Shown here piece by piece: positions 39,760 to 50,886 of a DNA stretch of 64,000 nucleotides. The stretch is from NCBI RefSeq assembly GCF_016595215.1, contig NZ_JAENHK010000010.1:372001-436000 (forward strand), given 5' to 3'. Both the position numbers and the translations under genes were made by a program. The stretch's first letter is position 1. Every line of letters begins with the position of its first letter. Below the pieces are notes generated by a model. That model ran no database searches. It had not been told where the DNA came from and saw only the letters and a program-made list of their open reading frames with translations. Source of the stretch: Chryseobacterium paridis. GTDB lineage: Bacteria; Bacteroidota; Bacteroidia; Flavobacteriales; Weeksellaceae.

Positions 39760-40407
39760 CAGCGAGAATAAAGATCTGCGTTATCTGCTGGATCGGCGAG
39801 CTTATTTTTATTTCTGTACAATTTATTTATGATTTATTTTTTCTCTCGCTGATTTTGCAGATAACGCAGATTTTTTAGTATTGTGATTTAGAAAGGTGTT
39901 CAATTCGTGTGATTCCTTACAGGGTAGGTTTATTTGTTTTCCCACAGATGACACGGATTGCACAGATTTTTTAGCAGTGAGAGTAAAGATTTGCGTTATC
40001 TGCTTGATCTGTGAGCTTGTTTTATTTCTGTACAGTTTATTTATGATTTATTTTTCTCTCGCGGATTTTGCAGATAACTTAGATTTTTTAGTATTGTGAT
40101 TAAGAGAGATGTTCAATTCGTGTGATTTCTTATAGGATAGATTTATTTGTTTTCCCACAGATGACACGGATTGCACAGATTTTTTAGCAGTGAGAGTAAA
40201 GATCTGCGTTATCTGCTTGATCTGCGAGCTTATTTTTATTTCTGTACAGTTTATTTATGATTTATTTTTCTCTCGCGGATTTTGCAGATAACTTAGATTT
40301 TTTAGTATTGTGATTAAGAGAGATATTCAATTCGTGTGATTCATTACAGAATAGGTTTATTTGTTTTCCCACAGATGACACGGATTGCACAGATTTTTTA
40401 ATAATGA
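39760..40407. repeat. Three tandem copies of a ~214-base intergenic repeat
   Basis: Copies run about 39760-39974, 39975-40187 and 40188-40407. The landmark CCCACAGATGACACGG starts at 39941, 40154 and 40368, giving periods of 213 and 214 bases. Copies 2 and 3 are nearly identical; copy 1 is more diverged. Each contains GCAGATAAC/GCAGATTTTT-type words, TCTCTCGC and TTTATTTGTTTTCCC. The unit is non-coding on both strands. It fills most of the 908-base gap between yciH and gpmI; the remaining flanks show nothing else. Confidence 0.9.
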
Positions 40408-46023: not shown

Positions 46024-46694
46024 TTTGGTTAATCGCAAAGGCGCAAGAGATGTTACAATTGAAACGTTTTTAAGGCGCAAGAAAATCGAAGATTTTCGGC
46101 AGTTTTTTTAACGCAAAGGTTTTATAATGATGCAGCTTTGTTTAAGAAGGCAAAGGGTAGCATCGCTGATGAAGCTTGTGTATTAGTATAAATTTAGACA
46201 AAAGAATAAGGTGAAAAAGATTGCTTCGTTCCTCGCAATGACGGTACGTTTTATTTCCCACAGATTTCACGAATTTCACAGATTAATATGGCAAAAATTT
46301 AAAGATTGGCAACAACTCCCAATCGACCTAGGAAGCTGTAGCGTTAAGAAAATGATTTCTGTGAACGTAAAGAAAATTCTACTGTCCGAAGCGCGACAAC
46401 AATGCCGAATTGGAAAACTCACAATGAATTCGCGCAAGTTTTAGAATTTTTAGTGAACAGAAATTATTTTTAGTGGAAGATTCCAGTCTTGAACTTTTGG
46501 TTCTTTTGCTTCAAGGTAAAAGAACATGATAAAAAAAGAGATTGCTTCGTTCCTCGCAATGACGCTCATTGTGCTTTTATTTCCCGCGGATCACACAGAT
46601 TACGCAGATCTCAATTTTTATCTCTGATAAAAATCCTTGCGCCTTAAAAGCATAATACATTAAAGAAAACTTACCACCATTGCGATTGACCAAA
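46024..46694. repeat. Composite intergenic repeat block A with inverted ends
   Basis: The block starts with TTTGGTTAATCGCAAAGG (46024-46041) and ends with CCATTGCGATTGACCAAA (46677-46694); the ends are inverted repeats with 16 of 18 matches. Inside are a GAAAATC-GAA-GATTTTC hairpin (46080-46096), a 48-base stretch (46321-46368) identical to block B, a second long shared stretch (46432-46563), and two copies of GATTGCTTCGTTCCTCGCAA. It fills most of the 984-base gap 45821-46804. The open frame at 46211-46444 follows repeat units and is not a gene. Confidence 0.75.
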
Positions 46695-46730
46695 AACACA
46701 ATCAACCAAAAATACCAGTTCATCACAACA

Positions 46731-46762
46731 AAAAACCATCTGCCCCGAAAGACAGATGGTAC
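46731..46762 (-). terminator. Terminator of the RCC1-like gene
   Basis: ACCATCTG and CAGATGGT form an 8-base stem around ten bases, followed on the minus strand by a run of T. Confidence 0.65.
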
Positions 46763-46804
46763 AAAAAATGAAAATGCTATTATTCTTGAGTAATATAGCC
46801 TTGG

Positions 46805-48781
46805 TTAATAATTATCTTCTGAATTACATCCGGCTTGGATACAAACCCATCCTTTTCTATCCGAGGCTACGGTAGGGTTATTTCCTCTGTATAATTTGAC
46901 GCATTTAGCGTCTGTATCGTAAACGATCATTCCTGCTACGGGGGTTAATGCATTGATCTGTGCGGTGGTCATATGAGTGATTACCATTCCTTTTTTAGAG
47001 GCATCTAATACCATATGTCCATTGGGAACTTGAGTTGGCCAATTATTCGAGTGCGACTCTTTGGTAGAGATCCCAAACTTGCTGGATAAACCGGTGCCGG
47101 TTTCTATAGGAACTTTACAGGTACAATTTTCATATCCTGGATCTCCGGGTGCCAGATTAGAGATGACAACAGGGTCTGAAGCGGGTGCGTTATCACAATT
47201 CCCTGTATTTGTTGGGATGTAAAAAGCATAATAAGTACCAGGGCCTACTGCTCCTGGGTTGGCAACCTCTGTTCCAGCGTCTCTTGTTGGGGTGGTATAC
47301 CATTTGAGTTCGTAACCATTAGGTGTAGCTCCCGTATGCATAGTAATCAGATCGACCTTGGTTTCAGAGCAAATCTTTTTACTGATTACGTCTGGTTGGG
47401 CATTAGATCCACAAAGATTAATTTTTGCTGTAAAAAATGTATATTCATTTTCTGTAGTATTAGCAGATGATCCATTACCCATACTTCCATTGACACGATG
47501 ACCTACATATCCAAAGTTTTGACTACATTGTTTTATAACCATAGTGGTATGCCCTCCAGTTTCTACTGCCATTAAAACATCATTATCATCGAGTCCACCA
47601 GGCATAAATGTTGGATCATTACCCCTTCTACTTTCTATTCCAAGCATCCACCCATCATTATTTCCCCAAGCATAGAGTTTTCCATTGGTAGTTAGTGCAT
47701 TAATAGCTGCATGGTCTGTATCATGCTCCTGAGGACTAATCCAGGTAATATCATTCATATCTTCAGTAGCTGATTTTTTTACCCGCACCCATGTTGTTCT
47801 ATTAGTGGTGGTAAAATCTCCAAGTTGCTTTACATTATTAGAGCCGAGACTATACAGGCTACCATCTGAAGACAGAAGATAATAAGTATTATCAGATGAA
47901 TTATTTCTGGTCATTCCAATCATCTTAGGTCTTGCTCTGGAAGGCCAGTCTAAAGGAAGGGGCATCTCCGTTGCGTAGGCTCTATTACTCCGTGCTGAAC
48001 CATCTCCTAAATAAGTACCAGTTCCCCATGTATAAATTTTACCATTGCTGGTTAATGCCATAAGAGCATTTGTGTTTCCTCTTACAGCTACAACATCAGT
48101 AAGAAACTCATTGTCTCCGTTTCCGGTTTTTACCCTATGCCATACTCTGTTATTTGCTGTTGTTTGTGATGTTCCATCCCCATTTTTAGAGCCATTCATT
48201 GATAAAACCCATGCTTGTCCATTGCAAGTAGTAATCGCTAAGGTTCGATAGGATCCAAACATCATTTTAACATCTGTAGGATTCACTCCTTCAGGAAGAC
48301 CATCAGCTTTTGTTCCTGATATCCCGTATGTACCAATGCTTACTTTTCCAAAAGTTGCTGTATTTTTAATTGATGAACTAACAAGTTTGTTGACTAGCCC
48401 CCATACGAAAAGACCATCTGTTGTTAATACAACAAATTGTGGTCCCTTATTATTTTCTACTCTTGTACTATAACTCCCTCCTGTAGATTTTAAGATATTT
48501 CCGGTAAGTCCGGGATAATTAGTTGAATTAAGCTCGATAGGAGAAAGTACATCTGATGAGCCATTACGTGCAATAGCTTCTCCCCAAACCATTACTTTTC
48601 CAGAAGCTTCTTTTACCATAGAAGAATGAAAGGTGGAAACCATATTATCATATTCAATGGTATTGGGATCATTACTTTGAACATATGTATTCCCATTACA
48701 TCCGGATGTGCCGCATTGCGCCTGCAGGCTACCGGTAATTCCCGGAGCCATCATCAGCATGAAATAAATGTATTTTTTCAT
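46805..48781 (-). CDS. Secreted RCC1-like beta-propeller protein with C-terminal MxVYDT module
   Basis: A 658-residue exported protein with signal peptide ending SLQAQ. Residues ~45-430 hold RCC1-type propeller blades, marked by VMVWGEA, LFVWGLVN, IYTWGTGTYLGDGS, LYSLGSNNVKQLGD and LYAWGNNDGWMLG. Next comes an Ig-like segment (DLITMHTGATPNGYELKWYT) with Cys-rich ends. The final ~70 residues carry DASKKGMVITHMTTAQI and PVAGMIVYDTDAKC, a module recurrent in Bacteroidota secreted proteins and present twice in the neighbouring gene. No T9SS sorting tail follows. Surface or adhesion role is inferred. It lies between two related repeat blocks. Confidence 0.8.
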   Translation of the reverse strand: MKKYIYFMLMMAPGITGSLQAQCGTSGCNGNTYVQSNDPNTIEYDNMVSTFHSSMVKEASGKVMVWGEAIARNGSSDVLSPIELNSTNYPGLTGNILKSTGGSYSTRVENNKGPQFVVLTTDGLFVWGLVNKLVSSSIKNTATFGKVSIGTYGISGTKADGLPEGVNPTDVKMMFGSYRTLAITTCNGQAWVLSMNGSKNGDGTSQTTANNRVWHRVKTGNGDNEFLTDVVAVRGNTNALMALTSNGKIYTWGTGTYLGDGSARSNRAYATEMPLPLDWPSRARPKMIGMTRNNSSDNTYYLLSSDGSLYSLGSNNVKQLGDFTTTNRTTWVRVKKSATEDMNDITWISPQEHDTDHAAINALTTNGKLYAWGNNDGWMLGIESRRGNDPTFMPGGLDDNDVLMAVETGGHTTMVIKQCSQNFGYVGHRVNGSMGNGSSANTTENEYTFFTAKINLCGSNAQPDVISKKICSETKVDLITMHTGATPNGYELKWYTTPTRDAGTEVANPGAVGPGTYYAFYIPTNTGNCDNAPASDPVVISNLAPGDPGYENCTCKVPIETGTGLSSKFGISTKESHSNNWPTQVPNGHMVLDASKKGMVITHMTTAQINALTPVAGMIVYDTDAKCVKLYRGNNPTVASDRKGWVCIQAGCNSEDNY

Positions 48782-49009
48782 AATAAAATTGTGTTTTAAA
48801 TTTTTTTTAATTGTTAAATAGTAAGCATCATTATAGCGTTTCAGGATTTCATATCCTGAAATAGGTTGATATCAAAAGATAAACAGCAATCTGTTTTTTA
48901 TATCATCCAGTACTCAATAGAACATTGGTCTATGACCTTTGAGACTATTGAGCACGATGAATGAATACGTGAGATCGTATAGTTAATGTTGTTTAATTGT
49001 AAAATAAGC
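48782..49009 (-). promoter_or_regulatory. Leader region with two hairpins before the RCC1-like gene
   Basis: The 228-base gap holds TTTCAGGAT/ATCCTGAAA (48839-48861) with a five-base loop, and a second longer inverted repeat CTCAATAG/CTATTGAG (about 48913-48952). Neither has a clear T-run. They could be a terminator of the upstream gene or a leader structure; I see no consensus promoter. Confidence 0.35.
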
Positions 49010-49513
49010 TTATTGCCAGAAGAACCAGTTTTGTCCATCGCAAACCGCTAAAGAGTCACTGTTCGTGTCATAGACCATCGTACCTGCTACCGGGCTTTTA
49101 AAGTTAGTGTGTGGGTTAGATACTTTGGGTAAGATCATCGCCTTTGTGGTCGATTCCAATACCAATACTCCAGGTTTTGAAGAAGTGTTAGCTCCAATAA
49201 TAACACCTTGATCTGTTGCTTTATCAGCAATCTGTGTGTTCACATAACGATTGGCTACAGCTTCTCCAGAAAGAGTTAGGTTGGTCCAGTCAGAACCATT
49301 GTGGTATTGTACCGCTTTGTCATTGGTGTTGACGATAAAAGTACCGCCTACAGCACCGGGAGCAGAATCTACTGAAGGAAGAATGATTCCTTTGTTTTCC
49401 GATCCAAATTCAAGAAGTGTGCTTGGATTGGTGATGTTGTCTTTTCCGATAGCTACCTGAGCGTGTAGCATCATGCAGAAGAATCCTGCGCAAGTCATTG
49501 TTAATTTTTTCAT
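49010..49513 (-). CDS. Secreted protein made of two MxVYDT-type modules
   Basis: A 167-residue exported protein with a signal peptide ending LHAQ followed by VAIGKDNITNPSTLLEF. It consists of two related ~50-residue modules: ENKGIILPSVDSAPGAVGGT with FIVNTNDKAVQYHNGSDW, then TTKAMILPKVS with PVAGTMVYDTNSDSLAVCDG. The second is also the C-terminal module of the RCC1-like protein encoded downstream. The family is frequent in Bacteroidota; its function is not established. A minus-strand TACTTTTG (49534-49541) is a likely -7 element. It may form a two-gene unit with the RCC1-like gene. Confidence 0.75.
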   Translation of the reverse strand: MKKLTMTCAGFFCMMLHAQVAIGKDNITNPSTLLEFGSENKGIILPSVDSAPGAVGGTFIVNTNDKAVQYHNGSDWTNLTLSGEAVANRYVNTQIADKATDQGVIIGANTSSKPGVLVLESTTKAMILPKVSNPHTNFKSPVAGTMVYDTNSDSLAVCDGQNWFFWQ

Positions 49514-49845
49514 TTGTTGTTGTGTTTCGGGAGCAAAAGTAGAAAATAAAAAAGATAAATAGCTTAAAAAAAAATTAAAAAAATATTAGAATGTTATTAG
49601 AATGCCTTTTTATTTATCAAATCCATAGTTTTATATTATGTCTATGATAATGATAAAATCGATTTTTTGAGGTGTTTTGTAGTAATCTTTACATTAAAAA
49701 AACTTGTATTTATCTGTTTTTTAACAATTAAGTTACAGTGTGGTTTCCTGATCATAAAGATTGAAGTACATTAAAATGTTTTAAGATGTGAAATTTTAAA
49801 ATGAATTTTTAGGTGATATGGATGAATAATTGATAATTTTAAATT

Positions 49846-50886
49846 GGTTAATCGCAAAGGCGCAAGGGTTTCTAAAATGGAAGCATTTTTAAGGCGCAAG
49901 AAAATCAAAGATTTTCGGCAGGTTTTTTTTCAACGCAAAGTTTTATACTAAGGATGCATATGATTAAGAAAGCAAAGAGTAGCTTCGCTGATTTAGTTTG
50001 AACCATTAAGTTTTTATGAAGGAGTGAAGTTGAATTAAGGATAATCATTCTGATTGTAAGCGACAGCTCATCTTAATGTTCTTAACAGCTTAAATAATCC
50101 TTAATGGTTTATCTTTTTACGTTAATATTTGGCTAATCGCAAAGGCGCAAAGGGTTTTAGAAGTAAACGTTTTTTAAGGCGCAAGAAATCGAAGATTTCG
50201 GCAATTTTTTTAAAAAATTTTTGAATGTAAAGTTTCTTTCTACGATGTTTAGATTCCTTCACTACGCTTTCGCTTCGTTTCTGAATGACAAAGAGGGAAA
50301 ATTAGAATAGGGTTGATAAGAAAAATCTTTGATTTTTTTTAAACTTATGTGTACTTCTTATACATTATTATTTATCTTAAAGCTAAAGTGCACTAAAGTG
50401 TTTAAAATAAAACGCAGTCAAAGAAAACTTTTGTGCCTTTTGTGGTTTGAAAAAGCTCTCGCAGATTTTGCAGATTACGCAGATTAAAAAGGCTAAAATT
50501 TCAAATTTGGAAATAGATTCTTAATCGACCTAGGAAGCTGTAGCGTTAAGAAAATGATTTCTGTGAACGTTAAAAAAATTCTACTGTTTGAAGCGCGGGA
50601 CATCCATTCAATAATAAATTCACATTACATCCGCGCAAGTTTTAGAATTTTTAGTGAGCAGAACTCATTTTTAGCGAAAGCTTCCAGTCTTGAACTTTTG
50701 GTTCTTTTGCTTCAAGGTAAAAGAACACCATAAAAAAAGAGATTGCTTCGTTCCTCGCAATGACAGTACGTTGTATCTCTCGCAGATCAAGCAGATTACG
50801 CAGATCTTCAATTTTTATCTTTGATAAAAAATCCTTGCGTCTTAAAAACATAATGCAGGAAAAAAATAGCGTCTTTGCGATTAACC
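49846..50886. repeat. Composite intergenic repeat block B with inverted ends
   Basis: The block runs from GGTTAATCGCAAAG (49846-49859) to CTTTGCGATTAACC (50873-50886), a perfect 14-base inverted pair. A second left-end copy (GGCTAATCGCAAAGG, 50131-50145) suggests that a ~285-base partial unit precedes a ~756-base full one. The 48 bases at 50523-50570 equal block A, and 50633-50764 align with 46432-46563. The open frame at 50651-50851 is repeat-derived. Outside the block, 49514-49845 is AT-rich with no feature that I see beyond the -7 element at 49534. Confidence 0.75.

Follow-up and report, generated by a model that had tools for sequence, protein, structure and literature searches.

The question raised by this locus of Chryseobacterium paridis is what two related repeat blocks, lying on either side of an RCC1-like gene and its partner, represent. 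The original prediction saw in them either non-autonomous, MITE-like elements or the borders of a gene cassette moved by recombination. The window, i.e. the whole stretch of 64,000 nucleotides analysed here, is part of contig C2 of a 4.77-Mb genome, and its relevant features are the following:

46024-46694: block A, from GGTTAATCGC at 46027 to GATTGACC at 46691
46027..46111, + strand: end module at the left of block A, starting GGTTAATCGCAAAGGCGCAAG; family D1, an independent dispersed repeat
46220..46242, + strand: short module ATTGCTTCGTTCCTCGCAATGAC, copy 1
46255..46283, + strand: CACAGATTTCACGAATTTCACAGAT-type module, family D4, with more copies at 46581-46609, 50456-50484 and 50777-50805
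46324..46526, + strand: 203-nt structured element, copy A, CGACCTAGG ... CAAGGTAAAAGAACA; 236 bits with the R1 model, the same sharp ends as 32 copies that lie outside the window in unrelated flanks
46541..46563, + strand: short module ATTGCTTCGTTCCTCGCAATGAC, copy 2
46613..46691, - strand: inverted end module at the right of block A, with dispersed copies
46730..46763, - strand: intrinsic-terminator-like hairpin after the RCC1-like gene, recognised by eye, with block A just beyond
46805..48781, - strand: RCC1-like gene, between the blocks (PF25390, PF13540, PF00415)
49010..49513, - strand: partner gene, no Pfam match
49846-50886: block B
49846..49930, + strand: end module, first copy in block B; family D1
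50001..50109, no strand assigned: palindromic repeat AACCATTAAG...CTTAATGGTT in block B, arms 72% complementary; family I4
about 50129-50213 (listed as 50131..50213), + strand: second end module of block B, in direct orientation; family D1
50526..50727, + strand: structured element, copy B (202 nt); 231 bits with the R1 model
50742..50764, + strand: short module ATTGCTTCGTTCCTCGCAATGAC, copy 3
50811..50886, - strand: inverted end module at the right of block B, from the motif search and dispersed copies

The resemblance between the blocks holds up. The stretch of 48 identical bases claimed for them lies at 46321-46368 in block A and 50523-50570 in block B (compared by eye), the second near-identical stretch, put at about 130 bases, was found as 149 nt at 91% alike, and further similarity covers a 103-nt stretch at 83% plus the end sequences. 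The inverted ends are present, block B having in addition a second direct copy of the end, and both blocks are in direct orientation around the RCC1-like gene pair. This likeness goes beyond chance: with up to 3 mismatches allowed, the end motif occurs 4 times (0.11 expected), the 23-nt motif 3 times (0.00 expected) and the 21-nt motif 2 times (0.00 expected), each count being above all 100 shuffles. Nor is the similarity limited to short stretches, as the original prediction had considered, with 68 matches (E<=1e-3) to block A in its own genome, itself counted.

These genome matches split into separate modules, namely the end module, the ATTGCTTCG and CACAGATT modules and the middle part, and none except A and B themselves covers the whole composite. 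On contig C11 the middle part and two short modules make up two tandem groups, the spacing from unit to unit being about 320-330 bp. Block A resembles a single unit of this kind in which the short modules are repeated once more and which is enclosed by two inverted end modules; block B follows the same pattern and adds a further end module and the palindromic repeat. Blocks A and B are mosaics of independent dispersed repeats. Since end motif, 203-nt element and shorter modules are each dispersed on their own, a single MITE-like composite with inverted ends is not supported and was rejected; what stands of the MITE-like proposal is that the blocks consist of dispersed repeats and that empty sites exist. 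Two more copies of a CGCAGATT-type short module lie elsewhere in the window (39843-39872 and 40199-40228), and in other species sequence resembling the palindrome of block B adjoins elements (by eye).

As to the genes, a Pfam scan of eight neighbouring proteins (an SMR transporter, the RCC1-like protein, its partner without a hit, a Crp-like regulator, a methyltransferase, a LacI type, a phosphoglycerate mutase and a desaturase) bears out the reported absence of a transposase near the blocks. Relatives of the Crp-like gene were compared in 80 listed loci of 291, all from Chryseobacterium records. The SMR gene comes next without the RCC1-like pair in 78 of these 80 (within 772 nt in 77 of them and at 2702 in the other), the SMR match of another lies upstream, and the pair is in place in only one, that of Chryseobacterium sp. 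LAM-KRS1, the closest listed relative; for this reason, the RCC1-like gene and its partner (46805-49513) look like a lineage-specific insertion. In LAM-KRS1 both spacers around the pair are without blocks: a hairpin similar to 46730..46763 follows the RCC1 gene, and about 17 nt further on the SMR upstream region begins, where the window has block A. As the pair stands there without them, its presence is independent of the blocks. Recombination between direct blocks as the means of moving the pair would fit their orientation on its two sides and its absence from 78 of the 80 listed relatives, but LAM-KRS1 carries the pair at the same place with the blocks missing, and the blocks are 82% alike over their largest common part; that locus contradicts the cassette, to which we leave next to no probability. 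The 203-nt element is found between the Crp-like and SMR genes in none of the 80 listed loci (BLAST, E<=1e-8, >=90 nt), and the sole match within 8 kb of them is short and 6.8 kb off (L490). Sites without blocks thus exist among relatives, as in LAM-KRS1, and the simplest account is that this lineage acquired blocks A and B beside its SMR and Crp-like genes.

The 203-nt element has sharp ends: among 34 copies aligned with their flanks, it starts with YGACCTAGG and finishes with CAAGRYAAAAGRAYA, and the sequence outside is unrelated save within tandem arrays. Its own genome holds 11 copies and one fragment, the model search also returning 11, and eleven congeners gave 13, 17, 2, 18, 7, 12, 4, 0, 13, 1 and 14 matches (model, E<=1e-3, partial ones included). 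A genus search with the whole of block A matched 135 of 148 genomes (E<=1e-10), mostly through the middle part. R1 model matches (E<=1e-3) occur in 74 of 296 genomes order-wide and in 84 of 395 sampled genomes phylum-wide, other orders and classes included, the phylum search having stricter filters and few candidates scored per genome; with 3 (genus), 8 (order) and 6 (phylum) candidates scored in each genome, copy numbers there are lower bounds. Family members range from about 165 to 235 nt, arrays reach 7 copies in the stretches examined, and in many of the distant copies inspected, some of them GC-rich, the overall plan is retained and the stems are re-paired (by eye). No Rfam 15 covariance model reached its gathering threshold in the window, matches over the element having E values of 5.8 or worse, and a second Rfam comparison gave none over it at E<=5. 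The literature searched, most subscription papers and all preprints lying outside it, yielded no description of the element; the available portions of PMC11109978, PMC8632094, PMC5395568, PMC9723704 and PMC2864571 do not describe it, and that of PMC2267715 holds none of the terms sought. The 203-nt element belongs to an unnamed family of interspersed structured elements across Bacteroidota.

The fold of the element is strand-specific. For copy B, the folding energy on the + strand is -58.5 kcal/mol (z -4.86, equalled by none of 200 shuffles), and on the - strand z is -2.64 (equalled by 1 of 200). A consensus fold of 33 copies contains 49 pairs, 9 of them changed on both sides. The structure is an interrupted long hairpin in which a 3-bp terminal helix, two short helices and three longer ones are nested, with conserved interruptions that on the 5' side read approximately CGTTAAGA twice and then CTGTTTGARGC. 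G.U cells outnumber A.C cells by 97:28 and 47:31 on structure-fitted alignments and by 28:3 on one that was not so fitted, in a count that omits pairs whose commonest type is the wobble; such asymmetry would be equally expected of a strand-specific function as single-stranded DNA.

Covariation was then assessed at a single orthologous site, between argC and argD. Among 67 distinct copies, on alignments fitted to the model (as for part of the wobble count), 96.4% of cells are paired (89.4% shuffled), the covariation score is 0.222 (0.102 shuffled, sd 0.004) and 19 pairs are changed on both sides (14.4 shuffled), with no shuffle of 500 as high in any of these. Of the five measures, four lie above all shuffles and one, 'further pair types', does not (295 of 500), so that the compensatory base-pair changes expected of a structured RNA are found beyond controls in all but one measure.

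How the element persists can be followed at this same site. Of 146 genomes of the genus, 131 yielded argC; 110 of these loci were taken, and the exclusion of two without argD in the stretch left 108, four of them relabelled after inspection (L202, L275 and L297 to 'full', L298 to 'none'). The spacer holds a full copy in 69, a remnant in 6 and no element in 33, and the element is therefore dispensable there. On a tree of argC plus argD, 20 presence changes are needed, at least 8 of them forced by starred branches ('none' label). Identity in the 21 pairs formed by seven close species is 95.3% for the element, against 91.4% for argC, 81% for its third codon positions, 78.4% and 86.3% for the left and right flanks and 78.7% for the apical loop of the element, and argC is less conserved than the element in 19 of the 21 pairs. 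Against a reading in terms of selection, across all 69 copies (400 sampled pairs) the element (80.0%) is above argC (85.2%) in only 132 of the 400; the left and right flanks there are 57.8% and 51.2% identical.

A comparison with the copies at purB indicates how these sequences are inherited. Same-site copies of different species are 95.3% identical at argC-argD (21 pairs) and 90.7% at purB (78 pairs, best copy each), whereas argC-argD and purB copies are 71.0% identical within one genome (15 pairs) and 71.3% between genomes. The copies are therefore not homogenised, and gene conversion between them is unsupported as a source of the covariation; the identities imply that the copies at both sites are inherited, with the fold kept copy by copy. 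Purifying and compensatory evolution in place is shown at the sites studied, argC-argD and purB.

In 15 species the purB element lies about 20 nt after a terminator-like hairpin (by eye); several have one copy and others arrays, G117 has none (a ragged deletion) and G066 a remnant. Between sdaA and tyrA the element is present in 3 of 30 loci, with two copies in the window genome, one in G112 and a different copy elsewhere in the spacer in G058; the spacer of G114 measures 55 nt and has no element. Target-site duplications were sought at the empty sites (sdaA-tyrA, argC-argD, purB and LAM-KRS1), where spacers are too diverged or deleted. Among the argC-argD remnants, L252 and L258 miss the inner arm, as if a hairpin had been cut out, and L226, L260, L263 and L293 keep little but the 3' end. 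Empty argC-argD spacers (L205, L209, L231 and others) hold other dispersed-looking words, CTCGAATCCCGTATC, AGGTTGCAGATGATAGGTTGCAG and CAACTAACAACTAGCAAC, and on this account the spacer may be an exchange hot spot. In G002 (L320) and G023, the elements before purB are preceded upstream by a gene for a small peptide whose leader is of the GG type, bacteriocin-like as judged by eye; in G023 the 3' part of this gene is matched again within the array region.

These patterns bear on the possibility that the element is non-autonomous mobile DNA, moved in trans as a folded single strand in the manner of IS200/IS605 or RAYT systems, with the fold as the recognition site of the enzyme. HEARO/OMEGA RNAs and IS200/IS605 ends are a related known system, with structured RNA of a mobile element similar to ours in size; Rfam includes a HEARO model, and no HEARO/OMEGA model matched over the element. 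Multiple copies, sharp ends, a strand-specific fold, the absence of long terminal inverted repeats and the co-existence of occupied and empty sites would all suit such mobility, as would the presence of PF01797 (Y1/RAYT) in 14 of 18 chosen genomes, most copy-bearing ones among them. However, PF01797 is missing from copy-bearing G000, G120 and G151, where past activity is possible, and present in G008, where the model search gave no element, as well as in G013, G042 and G099, without an element at E<=1e-10 with three candidates scored per genome; G072 has neither. With co-occurrence inconsistent in these 18 genomes, a RAYT/Y1 partner was rejected. Also against mobility, same-site copies are conserved and covarying without homogenisation between sites, and remnants are ragged deletions, though none of the 33 empty argC-argD spacers retains a trace that would speak for or against this; in addition, copy B found no match in plasmid and phage records at blastn sensitivity. 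Viral contigs gave no match to one exact 19-base pattern of the element, and, as regards an adjacent IscB/TnpB-type gene as in HEARO/OMEGA systems, the proteins flanking copies were viewed in part, by eye. We consider this mobile-DNA explanation rather unlikely, while giving it real weight.

The genomic context is informative on the remaining explanations. Among 77 sites defined by mechanically called ORFs (L084, L091, L092, L096 and L140 not entered, L139 skipped as a duplicate, L131 giving no site, and six sites at locus edges unclassified), the two neighbouring genes are co-directional at 46, convergent at 25 and divergent at 6. After orthologous sites were merged by hand, 21 are sense and 9 antisense (p=0.043), a slight bias. 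A replication-strand bias was rejected by eye, without a count, as the element occurs on both strands within short distances, e.g. in G002 and G087. The gene of a small RNA acting in trans, driven by a promoter of its own and amplified to many copies in tandem arrays, would agree with a structured, strand-specific sequence in arrays of up to 7 copies and with copies in convergent spacers beside terminator-like hairpins. Yet in the 34 copies aligned with flanks, sequence conservation does not extend past the element, which suggests that it carries no promoter along; a copy also sits between argC and argD, and in 6 of 13 loci it lies 16-18 nt ahead of the called start of argD. We hold such a gene to be improbable. 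Still less probable is a chromosome-organising site for a nucleoid protein, gyrase or a replication-related function, in which the imperfect palindrome would be read as DNA: the rarity of divergent placement (6 against 25 convergent) and the resemblance of the arrays to BIMEs fit it, but neither the wobble strand asymmetry nor the asymmetric 3' end is expected of duplex recognition. A general role as terminator is not favoured, given that copies are found next to terminator-like hairpins distinct from the element, and also within the argC-argD spacer.

Among the closest known systems are REP and BIME repeats with their RAYT transposases; like the element, these repeats are intergenic imperfect palindromes with tandem clusters and polymorphic presence. 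According to PMC3733652, REPs measure 20-40 bp, mostly with GTAG or CGTC tags. In contrast, the element is not such a tagged palindrome, being about 165-235 nt long with internal loops and other conserved words, and RAYT presence does not track it (G000, G120 and G151 have copies and no RAYT/Y1). The ERIC/RU repeat units of enterobacteria are intergenic, dispersed and 127-168 bp long (PMC2759123), and they resemble MITEs; unlike them, the element is phylum-wide and covaries at a single site, and it lacks the terminal inverted repeats of a MITE, its ends sharing only the 3-bp terminal helix and the block ends being separate repeats. The nearest in kind in the literature searched is the MRSC-65-2 motif (mobile/repeat sequence candidate) of PMC11109978, which is structured, has many copies per genome and strong covariation, and whose structure may, for its authors, be relevant as DNA. 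It has a single long stem, repeated UYCCGG and a distribution over diverse phyla, whereas the element has other words and two 3' helices.

On this evidence we read the element as selected in place as a folded strand, most likely RNA that would act in cis in a REP/BIME-like manner. The + strand would fold within inter-cistronic, 3'-flanking or read-through transcripts, and the folded RNA would bind a protein or protect or process mRNA ends, as REP/BIME do; new copies would arise rarely and then be multiplied in tandem or deleted by recombination. Against this cis-RNA reading, both window copies are antisense to their neighbours, and little transcription is expected at the purB copies and block A, as both lie just past a terminator-like hairpin (by eye). 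To the whole explanation, in which the blocks are repeat clusters, the phylum-wide family is selected in place and the + strand would work as folded RNA in cis, we give an even chance. If under selection, the family would be a large addition to the catalogue of bacterial intergenic elements, with matches in about one fifth of the sampled Bacteroidota genomes, and it may explain part of the intergenic repeat clusters in Chryseobacterium genomes. Occupied and empty orthologous sites, argC-argD for instance, constitute a natural test of selfish against useful repeats.

A more specific proposal, which we advance tentatively and regard as possible rather than probable, is that the element represents a class of functional structured RNA not described before and spread through the phylum Bacteroidota. 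Selection on its fold would keep it at fixed gene boundaries; the fold would be a helical rod in which internal loops recur, closed by a 3' hairpin whose loop would pair back upstream as a pseudoknot or switch, and the RNA would work with a conserved host protein. The 3' end comprises two covarying helices, CTTGAN/NTCAAG and GNNCTTTTG/CAAAAGNNC. Out of 162 distinct tails, 14 failed to parse; in the other 148, the terminal triplets are GAC/GTC in 106, GGC/GCC in 22, GCC/GGC in 2 and other or unparsed in 18, the variable pair of the first helix is kept in 141, and the second helix has 9-11 bp in 119. As the two helices overlap, they form either a pseudoknot or alternatives. A classical H-type pseudoknot was discarded on reasoning, the helices being too close for its geometry, and the arrangement may be a loop-to-linear pseudoknot or a switch. 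At one point in the loop of the 3' hairpin, an insertion of about 20 nt (GACTACGTCGAATCTTCGAT type) was seen in L223, L275, L252, L293, L297, L078 and L089, copy lengths suggest more such cases, and L118 has an insertion of another sequence at the same point.
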